DNA from: Planctomycetia bacterium | Lineage (GTDB): Bacteria > Planctomycetota > UBA8108 > SXIK01 | Assembly: GCA_005772855.1 (NCBI GenBank) | Contig: SXIK01000214.1 | Coordinates: forward strand, 1-45,330 | Length of the DNA stretch: 45,330 bases | Reading direction: 5' to 3' | Made by a program: the position numbers and the translations under genes | Notes under the pieces: generated by a model | Seen by the model: the letters and a program-made list of their open reading frames with translations, nothing else | Database searches by the model: none | What the model was told of the DNA's origin: nothing | In this document: positions 35,184-45,330 of the stretch, piece by piece | How the letters are laid out: every line of letters begins with the position of its first letter | Position numbering within the stretch: the stretch's first letter is position 1

Positions 35184-35624
35184 TTACCCAGACGCGTCGG
35201 TTTTCACAGGAATTTTCTTGCGCCTCAGGCTGACGTCGACGACGAACCTGCCCAGGAGAGCCCGCCGGCCAATGATCATACGGTAGTTCATGCCCTCGCG
35301 ACGGTGCAGGTTCACTGAGGTTCGAAAACGGCGGCCCGCAAGCGAGATCACGAGCTCGACAATCGGCCGATTGGTCACGCCGCCGGAGGGATTGCGGACC
35401 CGGCGAAACCTGCTGACAGGCACGCGAACGGTCCGCACACGCGTCCCGTCTCTCAACAGGATCTCGGCATAACGTGGGCAGTCTTGCTCGGATGGCAGAA
35501 CATGGACATCACCGACGTCCAGGGATGACGTGAAGGCACCCGTGTCGATCTTCGCCCGGATCCGCCGGAGGCCCCACTCAGGAATTGTGACTTCCTCGAC
35601 CGCACCAATCCGAGTTTTCTTCAT
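35184..35624 (-). CDS. RimK-associated retropepsin-like (RimB/ATP-dependent zinc protease) protein
   Basis: The 146-residue protein has the pepsin-type Asp motif in AKIDTGAFTSSL (DTGA at 27-30), followed by the family's RTSVNLHRREGMNYRMIIGR and ALLGRFVVDVS. This is the small soluble Zn_protease/RimB family often found beside RimK-type ATP-grasp ligases; no RimK gene is in the window. Despite the old name, catalysis is expected to use the Asp of a homodimer as in retropepsins. ATG 35624 overlaps the upstream methyltransferase stop by four bases (ATGA), so the pair is coupled. Substrate unknown. Confidence 0.85.
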   Translation of the reverse strand: MKKTRIGAVEEVTIPEWGLRRIRAKIDTGAFTSSLDVGDVHVLPSEQDCPRYAEILLRDGTRVRTVRVPVSRFRRVRNPSGGVTNRPIVELVISLAGRRFRTSVNLHRREGMNYRMIIGRRALLGRFVVDVSLRRKKIPVKTDASG

Positions 35625-36274
35625 TGGCCTCGCTCTAGCAGCGTGAAGTGATGGCCGCTGAAGACCGTGGAGATACTCTTCGAGGCGACGACGCGGAACC
35701 CGGCGGCCTGCGCCACCTGGGACACCTCAACACGGCTGAGCGTGTGCTTGGGACGTTTTTTTCCGCCCAGGCGGCGATAGAGATTTCGAAGCTGATTCTT
35801 GAGGCTCTCCTCTCCGAAAAACGTGAGCAGAACATAACGCCTCGAAGCTCTCAACAACTCACGGATGTGGTCCTTCCGGGCCTCGTGCTCGGGGATGTGG
35901 TGCGAGAGCCGGATGGAGACCACGAGGTCAAAGGTACGATCGCCGAAGGGAAGCTGGAAGGCGCTGGCTGCGGCGGCAAACGGCGTGTACCCCACAGCAT
36001 TCTTGCGGCACAGCTTCAGCATCTCCCGCGAGTAATCCACCTCGTAGAGACGACGAGCATGACGCGCAATAACGGGTGAGAGCCGGCCGGCACCGCAAGG
36101 CACGTCGAGAACGCGCTCGCTCGTGCCTGTCCTTGCCAACAAGCTCCCCAGTAAACTTTTTTCGCGCCGATCGGAGAGCCTCTTGTGGAGCTGCTTCTCG
36201 TACTTGACCTCATAGCTGGCGGCCTTTTCGGGCTTCCGCCGGTTTTCAGAGTATTCGATTTTTTCGAGGCGCAT
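35621..36274 (-). CDS. Class I SAM-dependent methyltransferase
   Basis: The 217-residue protein has SAM motif I VLDVPCGAGRL (55-65), acidic loop YEVDYSREML, motif II around FDLVVSIRLSHHIPEHE and post-motif VLLTFFGEES. It is a methyltransferase_11/25 type. ATG 36274 is preceded by GGTGGAAG about eight bases upstream; the open frame goes back to 36304. It sits 60 bp behind the LPS-kinase-like gene and overlaps the protease gene, so it could modify a lipid or glycan made by the neighbours, but the substrate is unknown. The N-terminus (EKAASYEVKYEKQLHKRLSD) resembles methyltransferases found beside LPS kinases. Confidence 0.85.
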   Translation of the reverse strand: MRLEKIEYSENRRKPEKAASYEVKYEKQLHKRLSDRREKSLLGSLLARTGTSERVLDVPCGAGRLSPVIARHARRLYEVDYSREMLKLCRKNAVGYTPFAAAASAFQLPFGDRTFDLVVSIRLSHHIPEHEARKDHIRELLRASRRYVLLTFFGEESLKNQLRNLYRRLGGKKRPKHTLSRVEVSQVAQAAGFRVVASKSISTVFSGHHFTLLERGQ

Positions 36275-36334
36275 CAAAGTTCTTCCACCTTCTTCAACGT
36301 CCACCAGGGAAGCACGCAGTTTGCCAGGAAAGCC

Positions 36335-37399
36335 TCAGAAAGGCCAGTAGTTCCCCACCCCGAAGCGCTTCAGGAGGCGCCTCCAGCGCCGATGAACCCT
36401 CCCGGTGAAGGTGGCGTGGCGCATGCGATCACGCTGTCGGAGGATCTTTCGAATCCAGCGGCGAATCGGTGGTCCCTCACCCAGCCGCCGAAGGTAAGTC
36501 TTCAGAAACCGGTAACGCCCGATGGGGCCGAACACCATTCTGGCCCACTTGTCGAGGCATGCCAGGTCCCTCGCTGCCAGAGAAAAACTGAGGCCTCGAC
36601 CACGTAGCCACCACAGCCTTGGAACGTCACAGAGCACGAGTTCCACGCGTCCTTCTTTGTTGCGCCTCGCCAGGATGTTCTTTCCATAGAGTGTTCGAAC
36701 GTAGCAGCGGGCCCGGTGGAGCTTGGCCAGGTCCTTTGCAAAGACCAGCATGGCCTCACGAATCTCCGCAGCGGAGAAATCAACTGGCTTCCCCCTCGTG
36801 CACGCCTTGAGCCACGTCTTCAGGCTGGTGGCACCCGCGAACTCCCGCGTAATGAGAAACGATCGATGGTAGAGGATCCAGAAACCCGAGTGGCCACAGG
36901 CGAGAGGCTCGACGGCGGGAAAGCCCAAGGACCTCAGAGCCAGCAGATTGTGAAATTCCCGCTCTGCCCGCGGCACTGTCAAGATTCCATGCAGTAGAGT
37001 CGGGAAAGGGTAATGCTCGTCCTTGAGCACAAGTCCCGCGCTGGCACTGGCGACTCGCGTGGCGGCAGCGATCCCCCCGCGGAAACCTCCACCGGCAGGA
37101 CCACCCCCGTTGGCCGAGGGCAAGGGGTCATCAAGACGCACCACTGTGCGGCGTCCTCGATCGGAGAGCAATTGAGCCTCGGGGCAGCTCCTTCGGGGCC
37201 GGAAGAGGCCCTCCCTTCCAAATACAGACTTGTACCACTCTGTACGGTTGGCCGGTACCACTACCCTCCGGTACCTGAGGAACTTTCGCTCCTCAATATA
37301 GGCAATCGGAGGGCCCGTGCCCCAGTCCGGGTTGGCGCGCATGATCGGGCCAAGGGTATCATGCCAACGCAGCAAATCCAGGGGGGCGCCGAAGTCCAT
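36335..37399 (-). CDS. LPS-kinase-like (WaaP/InaA family) protein with altered catalytic loop
   Basis: This protein of about 354 residues has the order of a WaaP/InaA kinase: LVLKDEHYPFPTLLHGIL, then AEREFHNLLALRSLGFPAVE, a hinge SFLITREFAGATSL, LAKLHRARCYVRTLYGKNIL and VLCDVPRL. In active members the catalytic loop reads H-x-D-L-x3-N. Here it is VRTLYGKN (residues 234-241), so the catalytic Asp is replaced by Thr236. Asn241 and the metal-binding Asp258 remain. The C-terminus is very basic (RRWRRLLKRFG), fitting membrane binding. The start is uncertain: ATG 37399 is the first Met outside repeat module D, ATG 37342 is another, and the frame is open back to 37642 through the repeat. It may be a pseudokinase or use another residue. 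The gene lies between the ArnT-like gene and the methyltransferase gene. Confidence 0.7.
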   Translation of the reverse strand: MDFGAPLDLLRWHDTLGPIMRANPDWGTGPPIAYIEERKFLRYRRVVVPANRTEWYKSVFGREGLFRPRRSCPEAQLLSDRGRRTVVRLDDPLPSANGGGPAGGGFRGGIAAATRVASASAGLVLKDEHYPFPTLLHGILTVPRAEREFHNLLALRSLGFPAVEPLACGHSGFWILYHRSFLITREFAGATSLKTWLKACTRGKPVDFSAAEIREAMLVFAKDLAKLHRARCYVRTLYGKNILARRNKEGRVELVLCDVPRLWWLRGRGLSFSLAARDLACLDKWARMVFGPIGRYRFLKTYLRRLGEGPPIRRWIRKILRQRDRMRHATFTGRVHRRWRRLLKRFGVGNYWPF

Positions 37400-37659: not shown

Positions 37660-39456
37660 CTACTCCCGCTGAAGTACCTGGACACGATCCCGCTTCACGG
37701 GAGCCTCGGGATTGACGATGCCTCGCACGACGAAGCCCTGAAGCCTTCCGCCTGGGCGGTCGCCCGGCTCCAGAGACATGGGCTCACCGCCACAGAGTGT
37801 CTCGATTCGCTCCTCGTTGATGAGCAAGCCGGCTCCCGCTGACACGCCTCCCAGAGCAGTGTCAGGGCTCTCGAGAATCTTCCGCTCCTCAATCAATTGA
37901 ACCGGCCGATCCAGGTAGTAGACGAATCCCCCGGGCAGGCTCCCCACCGCCTGAGCGAAGAGAGTGCCCACGCAAAAGACTGGAGCTTGCGGATCAAGAA
38001 GACTCGCCGCCACGCGCGAGGCCACGCGCATGTCCCCTTCCTCGATCGGGAGGTCAGCCTTCAACTCGTTGTAGAACCATGTGCCGAGTGAAAGCGCCGC
38101 GCTCAGCGCGAGAAAGGCCGGCAGGGGGCCAGGTCGGCGGAGTCCGAGGGCGAAGCCCAGGCTGCCCAGGAAGGCCACGAGGCCCAGGAGCACAAGGTAG
38201 ATAGGCTTCACGGCAAAGGTGCAGAGGACCTGCAAGCCCTCCTCGCCACAGAGGCGCTCCACGATCCCGTCAAGCGCTTGAGGCGCGAGAGCGAGGCAAA
38301 CGCAAAGCCCGAACAGCACCGCTCCGAACCCGCATAGCGCCCAGGCAACGGGACGCAACCGGGGCTGAAATCTGGGGTACCACGCATCGATAAACCAGCC
38401 GACAAGCAGCGATCCAGGCCCCAGAAGAGGCAGAAGGTAGGCCTGCTTCTTCTCCGTCACCAACGAAAAGCTGATGAAGATCACCACAAAGAGAACCCAG
38501 GGCAGCCGGTGAGCCATGTTTCTCTTGAACCCCAGCACGAGCGCCGAAAGAAGCGCGGGAGTCCAGACCCCAAAAGCCGAAAAGAGCCTCGGCAGGTAAA
38601 AATGCCATTCGTGCGAGTGCCGCTGATACTTGTACCCTCCCTCCACTCCGCTCGAGGGAAGCACCTTGCCCATGGACTCGAGCCACCACAGCCGGCACGC
38701 GTCCACAGGGCTCGACTCGGCGCTCAGTCGCAAGATGACCGCGGCCGGCCAGAAGAGCGCCAGAAGAAGAAAGCAGGCGATTCCGGGCGGGTAGGCCAGA
38801 GGGCGCAGAGGGTCGAGCGAACGAGTCACCGCTGCTTCGAGAAGCGGCGGCACGATACAGAGGAGAAGGATCACGGGGCCCTTCGCCAGCGCCCCGAGCC
38901 CGAGAAACGCGTAGAAACCAAGCTGATTCCAGCCGGAGCGGCGCGACCCCGGGGGGGAACTCGGCTCCAGCGCCTGGCGGCTGCAAAGGTAAAAGTGCCA
39001 GGCGCCCAGAGCGCAGAAAAGCTGGGCCGAGTCGGCTGTCGCCATGCGGCCCTCCTTCACAAAGAGAGCCATCGTGATGAGGCTCGCCGCAGCCAAAAGC
39101 GCCGCCCGGGGGCCAAAGAGCCTGCGCGCCGTCGCCCAGGCAAAGAGAGCCGCCCCGACGCCGAGGACCGCGAACGGGTGCCGGAGGGTGTCGTCGTCAA
39201 AACTTCCGCGCAGCACCGCGTAGGCATGAACGAGCCAGTAGGCAAGTGGCGGCTTCTGCAACCGCAGCTGGCCGTTCATGGTGGGGACGATCCACTCGCC
39301 CTTGCGCCACATTTCTCGCGACGTGATCGCCACGCGCTCCTCGAGAATGCTTGAGACGGTCCGCTCTTTCGTGGGGAGAAAGAAGACGGGCACCGCGAGG
39401 AGAATCACGCCAAGGGGCTCGAGGAAACGGGACCGTTTCATGACGGAGAGAGGCAT
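37660..39456 (-). CDS. ArnT-like GT83 glycosyltransferase (PMT family)
   Basis: The 598-residue protein has about 12 membrane helices and the ArnT/PMT N-terminal motif EERVAITSREMWRKGEWIVP followed by NGQLRLQKPPLAYWL; canonical members begin this with DE, here it is EE. ALGAWHFYLCSRQ and ALAKGPVILLLCIVP are further family marks. ArnT-type enzymes transfer a sugar such as L-Ara4N from undecaprenyl phosphate to lipid A on the periplasmic side. Donor and acceptor cannot be read from sequence. ATG 39456 and ATG 39441 are both possible starts. It leads a minus-strand run into the LPS-kinase-like gene, 260 bp away across module D. Related to, but different from, the ArnT-like protein at 43028. Confidence 0.85.
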   Translation of the reverse strand: MPLSVMKRSRFLEPLGVILLAVPVFFLPTKERTVSSILEERVAITSREMWRKGEWIVPTMNGQLRLQKPPLAYWLVHAYAVLRGSFDDDTLRHPFAVLGVGAALFAWATARRLFGPRAALLAAASLITMALFVKEGRMATADSAQLFCALGAWHFYLCSRQALEPSSPPGSRRSGWNQLGFYAFLGLGALAKGPVILLLCIVPPLLEAAVTRSLDPLRPLAYPPGIACFLLLALFWPAAVILRLSAESSPVDACRLWWLESMGKVLPSSGVEGGYKYQRHSHEWHFYLPRLFSAFGVWTPALLSALVLGFKRNMAHRLPWVLFVVIFISFSLVTEKKQAYLLPLLGPGSLLVGWFIDAWYPRFQPRLRPVAWALCGFGAVLFGLCVCLALAPQALDGIVERLCGEEGLQVLCTFAVKPIYLVLLGLVAFLGSLGFALGLRRPGPLPAFLALSAALSLGTWFYNELKADLPIEEGDMRVASRVAASLLDPQAPVFCVGTLFAQAVGSLPGGFVYYLDRPVQLIEERKILESPDTALGGVSAGAGLLINEERIETLCGGEPMSLEPGDRPGGRLQGFVVRGIVNPEAPVKRDRVQVLQRE

Positions 39457-39863: not shown

Positions 39864-41818
39864 ATGAAGAGGAGAAACCCCCAGGGGAGGATGCTGGACG
39901 AGAATCAAGGGCGTTGGCGCGTTCTGAGTGCCTATTTCGCGCTCACCTACGCTGCGTTTCTGGTCAACACTGGGTTCTACCTCAAGTACCCGGTGATCGA
40001 CGGCACGATCCAGTGCATCTACCTGGCGTCGGTGTGGCTGACCTACAGCTTCCTCTACCTCGCGGCTCCGATGGCCATGATCGCTGCCTGGAATTCCATC
40101 ACGACATCACCCATGGCTCGACGCATGGGCCTGTCCCGTCTTCCCGTGTGGCTGGTTCTCGGGGCACCTGCGGTCCTCCTCCTTGGTGGCGTACACCTTT
40201 ACTTCTTCGCCAACCGATTCGTCTACGGCCTTTACAAGTTTCACCTCCATAGCGGGTTTGTCCGTAACCTCGTACTGACGAGGGGTGGGCTGGAATCCAT
40301 GGGGAGCGATACCACCACGAGCGTGACGGTCGGCATTCTCACCGCAGGCTTCATTGGGCTGCAATGGGCTCTGTTCGCGCTCGCTTTGAGGAGCGTGCAG
40401 AGCCGCCGGTGGACCACCTGGCTCATTCGGCCGCGGCGCCTCGTGGGCACGGTCGCAGTGCTCATCGTACTGGGGCTCTTCGAACGCTGCACCTTCGCCA
40501 TCAGCAGCATCCGGGGTTACATGCCGGTCCTCTCCTCGGCGGAGACGTTTCCTTTTTACCTCCGCATGACAGTTGGAGGTCTCGCCCGGAAACTCGGAAT
40601 CGAGGCCGCGCGGAGCGACGAGCTGCATGTGAGCGTGGGGGCAAACCACCTCAAGTACCCGCTTCAGCCGATTCGGATGGCAGCGGTTCGGCCCCGGCAC
40701 AACATCGTCTGGCTCGTCAGCGAGTCCCTTCGGTGGGACATGCTCGATCCGGAGATCATGCCGGCCACGTACGCCTTTGGGAAGAAGTCGGCGAGGTTCC
40801 TCAACCACTTCTCCGGTGGAAACGGGACGCGCATGGGCGTCTTCAGCATGTTCTATGGCCTTCATGGCCCCTACTGGTTCTCCTTCATGAACGAGCGGCG
40901 AGGTCCCGTGCTCGTCGATCTCATCCTGGAGGACAACTACCAAATGGAGCTCTTCACCAGCGCCCGCTTCACGTATCCCGAGTTCGACAAGACCTTCTGG
41001 GCCCGCGTGCCCGTGGAGCACCTCCACGAGGCCGAGAAGGGCTTTGGCTGGGAGAAGGATCGCGAGAACGTCGGGAAGATCCTCGACTTCATTGATCAGC
41101 GAGATCCCGCCAGGCCCTTCTTCACCTTTCAGTTCTTCGAGTCTCCACATGCCCGCTACTACTTTCCGCCCGAATGCGTGATTCGTGAGCCCTACCTCGA
41201 GACTTTCAACTACGCGACCTTCGACCCCTCAAAAGACATCGAGCTCGTCAAGAACCGCTATATCAACTCTTGCCGACACCTCGACACACAGATTGACCGT
41301 ATCTTGAAGAGCCTTGAAACTCACGGACTCCTCGACTCAACGATTGTCATGATCACGGGCGATCACGGCGAGGAGTTCATGGAGCATGGCATGTGGGGTC
41401 ACAATTCCAAATTTCACGAGGAACAGATTCGTGTGCCGCTCGTGATCTGGGTCCCGGGAAAACCTCCCGTCGAGATCCCCCGCATGACCAGCCATCTCGA
41501 CATCGCCGCCACCGTTCTGAAGGTGCTCGGGGTGGAGAACGCGGAGTCCGACTACGGCCTCGGCCACGAGACCTCTTCGGCCGCACAGAACGTGACTATA
41601 CCGTTCTCTCGGGGTGGGACGACCTCGCGGTCCTTGATGACCGCTACATCGCAGTTTACCCTCTCCAGGGTGTCGGCTTGGGCGATCAGATCGAGCGCAC
41701 TCCGCAGGGCTATCGAGACCCGAAGCCGCAGGAGTTCCAGGAGCGGATGCGACCCCGCATGAAGGCAGTCCTCCAGGACCTCAAGAAGTTCCTCGACACA
41801 AAAGCCTCTGCCAAGTAG
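39864..41818 (+). CDS. YejM/LtaS-like membrane sulfatase-fold protein, frameshifted near its 3' end
   Basis: The protein has five predicted membrane helices (residues about 20-215), then an alkaline-phosphatase-fold domain: IVWLVSESLRWDML (about 282), GGNGTRMGVFSMFYG (about 320, possible Thr nucleophile), ITGDHGEEFMEHG (about 497) and GHNSKFHEEQIRVPL. This is the layout of E. coli YejM and of lipoteichoic acid synthase, periplasmic-facing proteins acting on envelope lipids. The first frame ends at 41762 with a Ser/Arg-rich nonsense tail. The expected end, RDLFGRTERDYTVLSGWDDL to FLDTKASAK, is in another frame up to 41818. The shift is near 41561-41571 (GGCCACGAGACC; loss of two bases or gain of one restores GRDLFG). 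AGGAGAG lies about six bases before ATG 39864. Confidence 0.82.
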
Positions 41819-41827
41819 TGGGGTCTC

Positions 41828-43031
41828 TCAACGTTCGAGGGTAAAACGGTCCAGCACCTCTTCCTCGAGCCCCACAGCCGCGCATTCAAGGCGATCGGGG
41901 GAGATGGCGAGCCTCAGATGATGATGCCGCACCCAGAATCTCTCGAGCCGAGGGTCGATGCCCACCGTGCTGGACAGGGTGGCGCCGCCGCCCCCCGAAA
42001 CCACGAGAATGGGCGCGAAGGGGCCGTCGCCCAGGGGCTTGTATCGCAAGTATGCGTGCTCGTGCCCCGCCAGGATCAACCGCACGCCCCGGCGCCTGGC
42101 GACCTCGAGCACCGGCGCGAGCTGAAGTGGGTCATCGAGCTGGCCGTCGCCGTGGGCTCCAATGGGCGGGTGATGCGTGAAGATGACCTTCCAGGGCAAA
42201 ACGCTCGCCTGGAGGTCGCGCTCCAGCCATTCCATCTGCGCGGCCGTGAAGCCTCGCAGCGTGGATGTGTCGAGCGACACGAAGTGCGCCGGACCCCGGT
42301 CAAAGCTGTACCACCGTCCCTCCGGGCCTTCCGGTACGAAGAAGCTTTCGTTGTACACGGCCCCCTCGGCGATCGCCCGGTCGTGACTGCCGGGCGTCGG
42401 GCAGATGGGCGCGTCGCGCAAGATACCACGGAAGGGGGTCGAAGAACCCCTCCGCGAACTCCTCGACAGGATCCCCGCCGTGCGAATAGACAATGTCCCC
42501 CAAGTGGATGAAGAGGTCAGGTCGAAACCGTGCGGCCTCTGCGGCCACTCGCCACTGGACCTTGCGCCGAAAGAATCCGAGGACTCCGGAGTCGCCAATT
42601 ACCACGACCCGGATCGAGGCGGAAGCGTCGAGCGGCGCCGTGCCAAGCGTACCTTCCTCCCGGACCGAATCACCGCGCCGAGTGACGCCGGACAATCGAT
42701 AAGCGTAGCGAGTCCCGGGCTCCAGGCCCTCAAGAGAAAAAAGGTGTCGCCGGGACGACAGGCACTCTTCGATCGACACGACGGGCTTGCCAGTAGTGGA
42801 GCGCAAATCGAGCGTCAGCTGCGCGTCCTCCCGGGTGCGGGCCGCGACGTTGATCGAACTCATTCCCGGCCGAAGCAGAAACGGCCCGTGCGCCACGGGG
42901 CGCGTGGCCGCGCAAGCGCAGAGCGCGAGCAGAAACCCTGGCGCGAACCCGCGAACAGCTCCGGCGATCCTGTTGACCCCGGCTGCGACTGCGCACACCT
43001 TCGGCCTCGATTCTTGCGGCGTCGGCGTCAC
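41828..43031 (-). pseudogene. Purple-acid-phosphatase-like metallophosphoesterase lipoprotein, frameshifted
   Basis: Two overlapping frames make one protein of about 400 residues. Frame one (43031 down to about 42436) has a lipoprotein-like signal (FAPGFLLALCAC), a fibronectin-like N-domain (LEGLEPGTRYAYRLSG), and phosphoesterase motifs GDSG and HLGDIVYSHGGD. Frame two (about 42436 down to 41828) has CPTPGSHDRA, FTHHPPIGAHGDG and LAGHEHAYLRYKP. The frames join at a run of five G (42434-42438) where one base too many gives the shift: FFDP then FRGILRDAPICP reads through if one is removed. The usual GNHD/E metal motif is GSHD here. GTG 43031 overlaps the next gene's stop by four bases (GTGA). 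It may be a sequencing error, slippage site or true decay. Confidence 0.78.
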
Positions 43032-44755
43032 GGCTTGGTGCTACTCCTGCGGTCCTGTTCAACGCTCGGGTAGGGCCATGGTTCGGCTTGATTGGAGAGG
43101 AGGTATGCGTTTCGAGTGCTCCCGAGCAGATGCAGTTTTCGCCCAACCATCGCCTCAAATTTGGGCAGGCGACGGCGGCTGATCGAGAGGAAAATACGGC
43201 TCGGCCCATCGAGCCGAGCCTTGAGGGCAGCGAAGTCCCAGAAAAGATCCGGGCGAAGCTTGAGCTCCTCGGAGCCAAAATCAAGCTCGCCCCGCTGCCC
43301 GCAAACAATGACGGCGCGCCCCAGGTGAAAAGCGAAGAGGGGCAAGTACTTGTTCACGCAGACCATCGTATCGGTGGGTCCAGCGACCCGCCGGACGGCC
43401 CGGGCGAGGCCATCGGTGGACACGGCGCGATCGATCGAGGCCTTTTGGAAGCCTCCAGCCAGGAGCAGCGCGGAAAGACCCAGCACGACGGCTGCGAAGG
43501 ACAGCAAGTCCCTCTTCCTCCAGAGGAGTACAGCAGCCGTCCCGAGCCCCGCGACACAGACGGCCAAAGCCGCCCAGGCAACAGGCCACTCCACGTAATC
43601 CGCCCACCAGACCTCAACGTCAAGAGCCCGCGCCATCGCCAGCCCCCCCACCCCGGCCGCGACGAGCGTGGCCGCGAGGGCTGCACCGACCGCCATTGAT
43701 CGTCTCGAGGCCTCGACATCCTCCCACGCGAGCGTGGCTAGAATCGAGACGGCAGGAAAAAGCGGCAGCACGTAGGTCGGCAGCTTCCCGGAAACCATCG
43801 AGAAGAACGCAAACCCGGGCAATAGCCAGCTCCACCCCAGTCGAGCCCAAAGGCTTCGCGTGATCTCCGGGCGGAGAACGCGCCACGGAGCCCCGATGAA
43901 GAGCATCCACGGGGCCGTTCCGCCCAACAGCACGGGCAGGTAAAAGTACCAGGGCTCCCCGTGGAAGTTGACATTCGCAACGTCGTCGCCGATCACTCTT
44001 CCGAGGTGTCCTTTGAGAAAGAAGAAGTCCCAAAACTTAGGGTACTTTGCCTGGACGAGCACAAACCACGGGACGGAGACCGCAAGGAGGATGGTCAGGC
44101 CCCCGAGCAGGCAGGGCGGCAGGATGCGCTCGCGCCCCATCGGCCGCCAGAAGATCCAGACGAGCCCCGGCACCACCAGTGCGACAGGGCCCTTGGTCAG
44201 GATTGCGAGCCCCAGCGAAAGGTATCCGCAATGGAGGATCGTCCTGCGCCAGGGCCTCCCGGGGTCCGGATCCGTCGTGCCTTGGGCAAAGCAAGCAATT
44301 GCAGCCGTGACCCACAAGGTAAACAGCATGTCAAGGGTCACCACCGTCGAGAGGACAAGGAAGAACGGCGAGGTGGCGAGGATCAACCCTGCGCGCAGCG
44401 CCGCTCGAGGCCCCGCGGCGAGACTGGCGATCCAGCTCGTCAGAAGGACGGTGCCCGCGCCGGCAGCGACCGAGACCGCACGAGCAGCCAGGTCACTCGG
44501 TCCGAAGAGCTTGAAGAGGGCCGCAATCGACATGACGTACAGCGGCGGCTTCTCGAGGTAGGGCACGCCGTTGAGGGTCGGGAAGAGCCAATCGTCGCTC
44601 GCCGCCATCTCGCGGGCGCACTCGAGGTAGCGGGACTCATCGGGCTCCCACGGCAGTGAAGGCAGCGTCCAGGAAAGCCCAAAAAGCACCAGAAGCCCGG
44701 CGGGCAAACCGTAGACAACTGCCCGCGAAAAGGCAGCTCGACTCACGACGAACAA
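43028..44755 (-). CDS. ArnT-like GT83 glycosyltransferase (PMT family), second copy
   Basis: This membrane protein of about 575 residues has the full ArnT/PMT motif: [20 protein letters not shown], then [17 protein letters not shown]. About 11-12 helices follow, with [20 protein letters not shown] and the [11 protein letters not shown] and [14 protein letters not shown] segments typical of aminoarabinose-type transferases. It probably moves a sugar from a polyprenyl phosphate carrier to an envelope lipid on the periplasmic face. The start is uncertain: TTG 44755 has GAGAGG nine bases upstream, GTG 44746 is three codons further in, and the frame stays open to 45109, far into the divergent gene, which cannot be real. 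It is divergent from the ArnA-like gene (124 bp apart) and its stop overlaps the phosphatase start by four bases. Confidence 0.85.
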
Positions 44756-44879
44756 GATGCACAGCCTCTCTTCACGCTTCAGGGTTATTTTTTCGTGGCC
44801 CGCGCCGGGGACGGATTGTAGCGTGGCAGCCGGTGAGATCCACTCGCCCCCGAGCCCCCAGGGAGCTGCGGCCAAGCCC
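44756..44879. promoter_or_regulatory. Divergent region between ArnT-like and ArnA-like genes
   Basis: This 124-bp gap must contain start signals for both genes. GAGAGG (complement of 44765-44770) serves the minus-strand gene; GGGAG at about 44861-44865 lies 14 bases before ATG 44880, rather far. GGTTATTTTTTCGTG near 44783 is the only AT-rich patch. No clear operator is visible. Shared control of a sugar-making and a sugar-transferring enzyme would make sense but is inferred. Confidence 0.3.
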
Positions 44880-45330
44880 ATGAAAGTACTCATCCTCGGC
44901 GTCAATGGTTTCATTGGTAGCCACCTCGTCCGCCGCATCCTGGACGACACCTCCTGGGAGGTCTTTGGCATGGACCTGGGCAACGACCGCCTGGGGGCCT
45001 GCCTCGAGTCACCCCGGTTCCGTTTTCTGGAAGGTGACATTTCAATCTCCCGGGAATGGATCGAGTACCACGTCAAGAAATGCGACGTCTGCCTCCCGCT
45101 GGTGGCCATCGCGACGCCGGCCGCCTACGTACGCGATCCCCTGGGCGTCTTCTCCCTCGATTTCGAGGAGAACCTCCGAATCGTCCGGCAGTGTGCGAAG
45201 TTCGAGACGCGCGTAATTGTCCCGTCAACCTCCGAGGTCTACGGCATGTGTCCCGACGAGGAGTTCAACGAGGAGAAAAGCCCCCTGGTCTACGGTCCGA
45301 TCTCAAGACAGCGCTGGATCTACGCCTGCG
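44880..45330 (+). CDS. ArnA-type UDP-glucuronate dehydrogenase/decarboxylase domain (5' part)
   Basis: 150 codons are present and the frame runs off the window. It starts [17 protein letters not shown] (Rossmann Gly motif), then [57 protein letters not shown] and RWIYAC. This follows the C-terminal dehydrogenase domain of E. coli ArnA, which oxidises and decarboxylates UDP-glucuronate to UDP-Ara4O for aminoarabinose lipid A. The active-site Ser/Thr (PSTSE) and Tyr (WIY) are visible; the Lys is beyond the edge. Unlike E. coli ArnA there is no N-terminal formyltransferase domain: this is a stand-alone dehydrogenase. It stands back to back with an ArnT-like gene. Confidence 0.88.

Follow-up and report, generated by a model that had tools for sequence, protein, structure and literature searches.

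In Planctomycetota, a kinase-like protein of the Kdo/WaaP family that has lost its catalytic aspartate is paired with one family of methyltransferases; the loss is conserved, the active-site Lys, Glu, Asn and Asp residues are retained, and the two proteins are occasionally fused. The protein described here is encoded in a 45,330-nucleotide window (the whole stretch of DNA that was analyzed) on contig C204 of a 5.03-Mb genome with 13 Kdo-family matches. We hold, with modest confidence, that it acts as a pseudokinase which binds nucleotide and either positions a substrate for the methyltransferase or licenses it, and that the pair derives from a WbdD-like kinase-methyltransferase module.

Loss of the catalytic aspartate in a Kdo/WaaP-family protein

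The protein and its altered catalytic position are located as follows.

36335..37399, minus strand: Kdo/WaaP-family kinase-like protein of 354 aa, catalytic His and Asp replaced (V234, T236), K126, E148, N241 and D258 kept
36692..36694, minus strand: Thr236 codon (ACA), matched to the catalytic Asp (WaaP D163) by sequence and profile alignment

The 354-residue translation contains LAKLHRARCYVRTLYGKNIL, and its catalytic loop reads CYVRTLYGKN, with Val234 and Thr236 at the positions of His161 and Asp163 in WaaP (Val234 codon 36698-36700, Asn241 36677-36679, Asp258 36626-36628, all on the minus strand). An alternative upstream start, ATG 37642, would extend the protein to 435 aa; alignment of the orthologues favors a start near 37399 or at Met20. 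An earlier note on this DNA had described a loop that is devoid of His and Asp and keeps Asn241 and Asp258, which the translation and the WaaP alignment bear out. The H-x-D-L-x3-N rule that it invoked is not universal in the family, as WaaP has a histidine where other members have the asparagine (PMC6147952).

The protein matches the Pfam Kdo family (PF06293) with 51.9 bits against a cut-off of 21.3, and it scores 31.9 bits against the NCBIfam RfaP/WaaP equivalog NF011703, below the cut-off of 170. In an alignment of WaaP (6DFL) with a profile built from the protein and four relatives, the threonine column falls opposite the aspartate of HRDCYICH. An AlphaFold2 model based on an 11-row alignment (mean pLDDT 80.9, pTM 0.80; modelling is unreliable for residues 1-25 and 95-118) predicts a kinase fold, for which the closest solved structure is again WaaP 6DFL, ranked top by Foldseek (E 2.4e-10) and by VIA (Z 16.1, rmsd 4.2 A across 235 residues); PRPK/Bud32 kinases come after it. 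Where functional Kdo/heptose kinases have the catalytic H-x-D, this protein has V234-R-T236, and the ATP/Mg residues of a functional kinase (Lys, Glu, Asn/His and the DFG-position Asp) are represented by K126, E148, N241 and D258, all invariant in alignment A3. The protein combines a predicted kinase fold with the absence of at least one canonical catalytic residue, shared by its orthologues, as expected of a pseudokinase.

Matches to the protein were obtained in 16 of 59 genomes (the window's own genome and its relatives); a first scan of the genome contigs with the protein itself as query matched no relative. The best relatives by identity, G001 (68%), G005 (40%) and G003 (30%), have the loops CYVRTLYGKN, FYSRTLFAKN and FYGQTLFAKN, respectively, and a more distant protein from elsewhere in the phylum (G050) has LCAYTLFDKN. 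All four retain the threonine, and T236, L237, K240, N241, D258 and P260 are invariant in the five proteins (the four relatives being 68-27% identical to the kinase-like protein). Conservation of Thr236 in orthologues was the check that the earlier note had proposed, and since it holds at 68, 40 and 30% identity, the lone mutation or sequencing error that the note had entertained is rejected. Its reading of a pseudokinase or a kinase with changed chemistry fits; regulation of an envelope enzyme, which the note suggested for a pseudokinase, is at most a possibility.

Catalytic residues were also read at seven other Kdo loci of the window's genome, on six contigs. The domains read have the aspartate except at L006 (contig C143, 8390-8908), where a glutamate replaces it (HWEFHDMN) and no methyltransferase of this kind is in view. 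Tandem Kdo-family proteins, with two kinase domains in one reading frame and the Asp of the catalytic loop in each, are encountered repeatedly in the phylum (L002/L007 on contig C32 of the window's genome, L018, L019, L023, L026, L032, L060 and L064); to our knowledge no function has been assigned to them.

The methyltransferase is the conserved neighbor

Three genes flanking the kinase-like gene are relevant to its context.

35621..36304, minus strand: class I SAM methyltransferase, the conserved partner gene (Methyltransf_11, 55.7 bits; conserved family A2/A4; pairing)
37660..39456, minus strand: PMT_2/ArnT-like glycosyltransferase, upstream of the kinase-like gene, in the same arrangement in G001 only
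35184..35624, minus strand: PF05618 'Zn_protease' gene, listed for context; it overlaps the methyltransferase gene at the latter's end

The methyltransferase gene adjoins a kinase-like gene at nine loci (in the window and in G001, G206, G290, G126, G170, G050, G090 and G043), while the remaining flanking genes vary among relatives (MutL, SNF2 helicase, AAA, VWA, RmlD) and are mostly not glycan genes; the flanks are not O-antigen clusters. Conservation of gene order thus supports the methyltransferase as the partner. The earlier note had placed the protein with both this gene and the ArnT-like transferase; the latter accompanies the gene in G001, which is of the same family, and no copy was seen next to the more distant relatives, which makes it an improbable partner. 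Eleven named methyltransferase relatives from the GTDB collection all come from Planctomycetota metagenome-assembled genomes, and ten have an adjacent kinase-like gene, with none in view at L094; some of these records are the same contigs as genomes listed above and add no further evidence. We also rejected a plasmid-borne module, as a plasmid collection gave no methyltransferase match at E <= 1e-15.

The true start of the methyltransferase is probably Met11 (36274). Its model (pLDDT 88.4, pTM 0.85) has a class I fold that is nearest to ChlM, NodS and DhpI among the matches listed. The family has the invariant motifs S-x-R-x-x-H-H, S-x-K-N and S-G-H and the invariant basic residues R132, H135, H136, R143, R152, K169, R173, K183 and K186.

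Elsewhere in the window, the PF05618 gene (which we take to be RimB-like) is followed by a universal stress protein gene, and a similar frame and stress-protein gene occur in G001 (L033). A sulfatase-domain protein (39864-41762, 116.6 bits) is encoded next to the PMT-type transferase, on the other strand, and a second PMT-type gene lies at 43028-45109; the sulfatase and the two PMT-type genes possibly form an envelope-modification neighborhood.

The pair across Planctomycetota

We searched 392 Planctomycetota genomes with a profile built from nine methyltransferases. Matches at E <= 1e-30 occurred in 85 genomes (104 listed), and the best 89 of the 104 were examined, the 15 weakest being left out; genes on one strand and no more than 700 bases apart were counted as adjacent. 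The top 41 of these 89 score at least 189 bits (G233, at 189.1 bits, included) and come from 41 genomes, one each. A Kdo-family partner is present in all 41 genomes, adjacent in 33 and elsewhere in eight (G217, G005, G243, G169, G140, G196, G003 and G232), where the Asp-less relative was picked post hoc among several Kdo-family proteins; in G140 and G232 it is about 2 kb from the methyltransferase. Two of the 33 adjacent pairs are single fused genes, L127 (G187) and L131 (G072). The catalytic Asp is missing in 38 of the 41 partners, replaced by Thr (16), Arg (12), Ala (5), Asn (3) or Ser (2), and is kept in G090, G072 and G007.

The other 48 examined matches score below 189 bits; 25 have an adjacent partner (16 with Asp, 9 without) and 23 have none in view. 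Eight of the 16 with Asp, all in family f62 (L141, L142, L143, L144, L151, L156, L139 and L140) are paired with a lower-scoring methyltransferase relative and keep the HxD Asp as HGD, with PIGCP or PIGAP placing a Gly at the DFG position; by alignment, this family has lost a different catalytic residue. The window's own genome encodes a second methyltransferase (contig C9, 533-1132; 120 bits; locus L174, 482-1877), which is followed by a kinase-like gene split between two frames by a sequencing error or as a pseudogene, and which was scored as having no partner despite the adjoining pieces. G181 has a Thr protein and no methyltransferase match at E <= 1e-30.

Loss of Asp is associated with pairing by Fisher's test (32 of 35 paired versus 12 of 53 unpaired domains, p 1.4e-10, relatedness ignored); one of 13 unpaired domains first scored as non-Asp, L065, was recounted as Asp, as an insertion shifts its loop, which reads HGDL. 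A test on independent pairs found no association, with only 6-8 supported contrasts and a median p of 1, and the association, strong by counts, is therefore confounded by relatedness.

Upkeep of the remaining active site

Among the 35 distinct partner domains adjacent to methyltransferases of at least 189 bits, the DFG-position Asp is present in all 35, the Asn in 34 and a Lys or Arg just before this Asn in 33. A D-x-P motif occurs in 31 of them, as compared to 4 of 40 unpaired Asp-bearing kinase domains. The 41 paired Asp-less domains, taken at any methyltransferase score, have the β3 Lys, the αC Glu and the Asn in 40 cases each. In a tree built from 110 domains (114 were collected, and 4 with fewer than 140 residues were left out), most paired Asp-less proteins fall into one group of 37 (support 89/90), and the Thr proteins of family f79 lie outside it with several other Asp-less proteins. 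The tree implies at least 12 changes between Asp and non-Asp, or 15 without the loop columns, its deep branches being weakly supported. The appearance of T, R, A, N and S in different lineages argues against one replacement base.

Alternative explanations

Relaxed selection, under which a kinase decays next to an unrelated methyltransferase and the two do not function together, would accord with a catalytic residue that differs among lineages. However, near-invariance of the remaining active-site residues is not what a decaying gene would show, and the partners occur together in 41 of 41 genomes, even when unlinked and sometimes as fusions, whereas other neighbors are not kept; we regard this as very improbable. 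The protein could instead be an active enzyme with changed chemistry, whose ATP site works on an acceptor that needs no base, such as a phosphate or carboxylate, or that transfers AMP or another group in place of phosphate, the methyltransferase then methylating the product. AMP transfer is the activity of SelO, which has a kinase fold but no HRD Asp. Retention of K126, E148, N241 and D258, fixation of Thr-x3-Lys-Asn in the window's group, and the very basic active site of the methyltransferase would suit such a reaction, as would the likeness of its model to ChlM and DhpI, which act on a carboxylate and a phosphonate, respectively. The replacements are chemically unrelated, however, and in one paired lineage it is the DFG-position Asp that is gone, which together point to loss rather than to a shared new chemistry, and we consider changed chemistry unlikely.

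A third alternative is that the pair is a working capping module resembling WbdD, the O-antigen chain terminator of E. coli O9a. That enzyme adds a phosphate to the terminal mannose of the O9a O-antigen and subsequently methylates the added group (PMC3482155); here the end of a glycan would be phosphorylated slowly without the Asp before the methylation. The two activities of WbdD and the occasional one-chain fusions are consistent with this, as are the histidine pair of the methyltransferase, the HxD kept by some paired relatives (G050 contig C163, G007 contig C787), and the spacing of D351 and N356 in WbdD, which equals the five-residue spacing of Thr236 and Asn241. Against it, D351A and D351E each eliminate the kinase activity of WbdD (PMC3482155), and D163A abolishes WaaP function (PMC6147952); moreover, in sequence and predicted structure the kinase resembles Kdo/WaaP proteins, and the flanks are not O-antigen clusters. 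We judge a slow kinase of this type to be quite unlikely.

Proposed role of the pair

Phosphorylation of a hydroxyl is an improbable activity for the protein, which lacks a catalytic base although its fold and its ATP/Mg-binding residues are intact. The tight hold on Lys, Glu, Asn and Asp makes nucleotide use, perhaps turnover, likely, as a pure scaffold need not keep them. In the reading that we prefer, a nucleotide-binding pseudokinase that serves the methyltransferase, the pair would descend from a module that phosphorylated and then methylated its substrate, as WbdD does, and the phosphate-transfer step would have been lost repeatedly. The kinase-like protein would bind the methyltransferase to form a complex, and its nucleotide-binding cleft and old acceptor site would hold or present a glycan or other acceptor; alternatively, it would switch the methyltransferase on under nucleotide control. 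The substrate may still be phosphorylated, given the invariant basic residues of the methyltransferase and the His pair at the phosphate site of WbdD. Also counting against our reading are the three partners that keep the Asp, the independent-pairs result, the Thr protein of G181 with no methyltransferase match, and the flanks, of which most are unrelated to glycans. More tentatively, we raise the possibility of a phylum-wide methyltransferase whose activity depends on a repurposed LPS-kinase-like subunit, such that nucleotide binding and not phosphate transfer controls methylation, probably on a surface glycan, the catalytic residues having been lost repeatedly (the HxD Asp in most lineages, the DFG-position Asp in one) and ATP binding kept.

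Eukaryotes supply most of the well-studied pseudokinases that direct a second enzyme. The proteins described here form a bacterial family with many catalytic-residue losses beside the same methyltransferase, and their Asp-bearing, Asp-less, DFG-less and fused members make a natural series in which the residual role of a retired kinase can be studied. The pair is also a candidate methylation system for the little-known surface of Planctomycetota.

Comparison with known systems

Kinase folds, Kdo-family proteins, pseudokinases in bacteria and WbdD have all been described before, and we found no description of a conserved methyltransferase/Asp-less Kdo-kinase pair in the open-access literature, which was the part of the printed record covered. 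Bacterial pseudokinases such as CP1, DLHK and ActPs likewise have a kinase fold minus at least one catalytic residue, but the families reviewed in one paper are Ser/Thr-kinase-like, unlike the Kdo/WaaP-type protein here, and a word search of its text gave no occurrence of 'methyltransferase', 'lipopolysaccharide', 'WaaP' or 'Planctomycet' (PMC12599244). The LPS heptose(I) kinase WaaP/RfaP (PF06293; 6DFL) shares the fold, the Lys, the Glu and the DFG-position Asp; it differs in having the catalytic His and Asp and a His168 in place of the Asn, whereas the kinase-like protein is paired with a methyltransferase. In P. aeruginosa WaaP, the H161A, D163A, K51A and D188N mutations each abolish growth support (PMC6147952).

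WbdD is a weak profile match of the methyltransferase (24.7 bits) and was not among the best 50 structural matches listed for its model in either search. The invariant H135-H136 and several Arg/Lys residues recall the His pair and Arg at the phosphate-methylating site of WbdD, a likeness drawn from its description and not from residue-by-residue alignment; such a pair is also found in other methyltransferases (PMC3482155). The same source describes an E. coli O8 WbdD that has no kinase domain and methylates the hydroxyl directly, so that a module of this kind can dispense with phosphorylation. Both systems bring methyltransferase and kinase modules together, sometimes in one chain. They differ in that the single WbdD chain includes a coiled coil and a kinase that is active (D351), whereas the planctomycete modules are usually two adjacent genes, outside O-antigen clusters, that join the methyltransferase to a Kdo/WaaP-type kinase in which Thr236 stands where the catalytic Asp would be.
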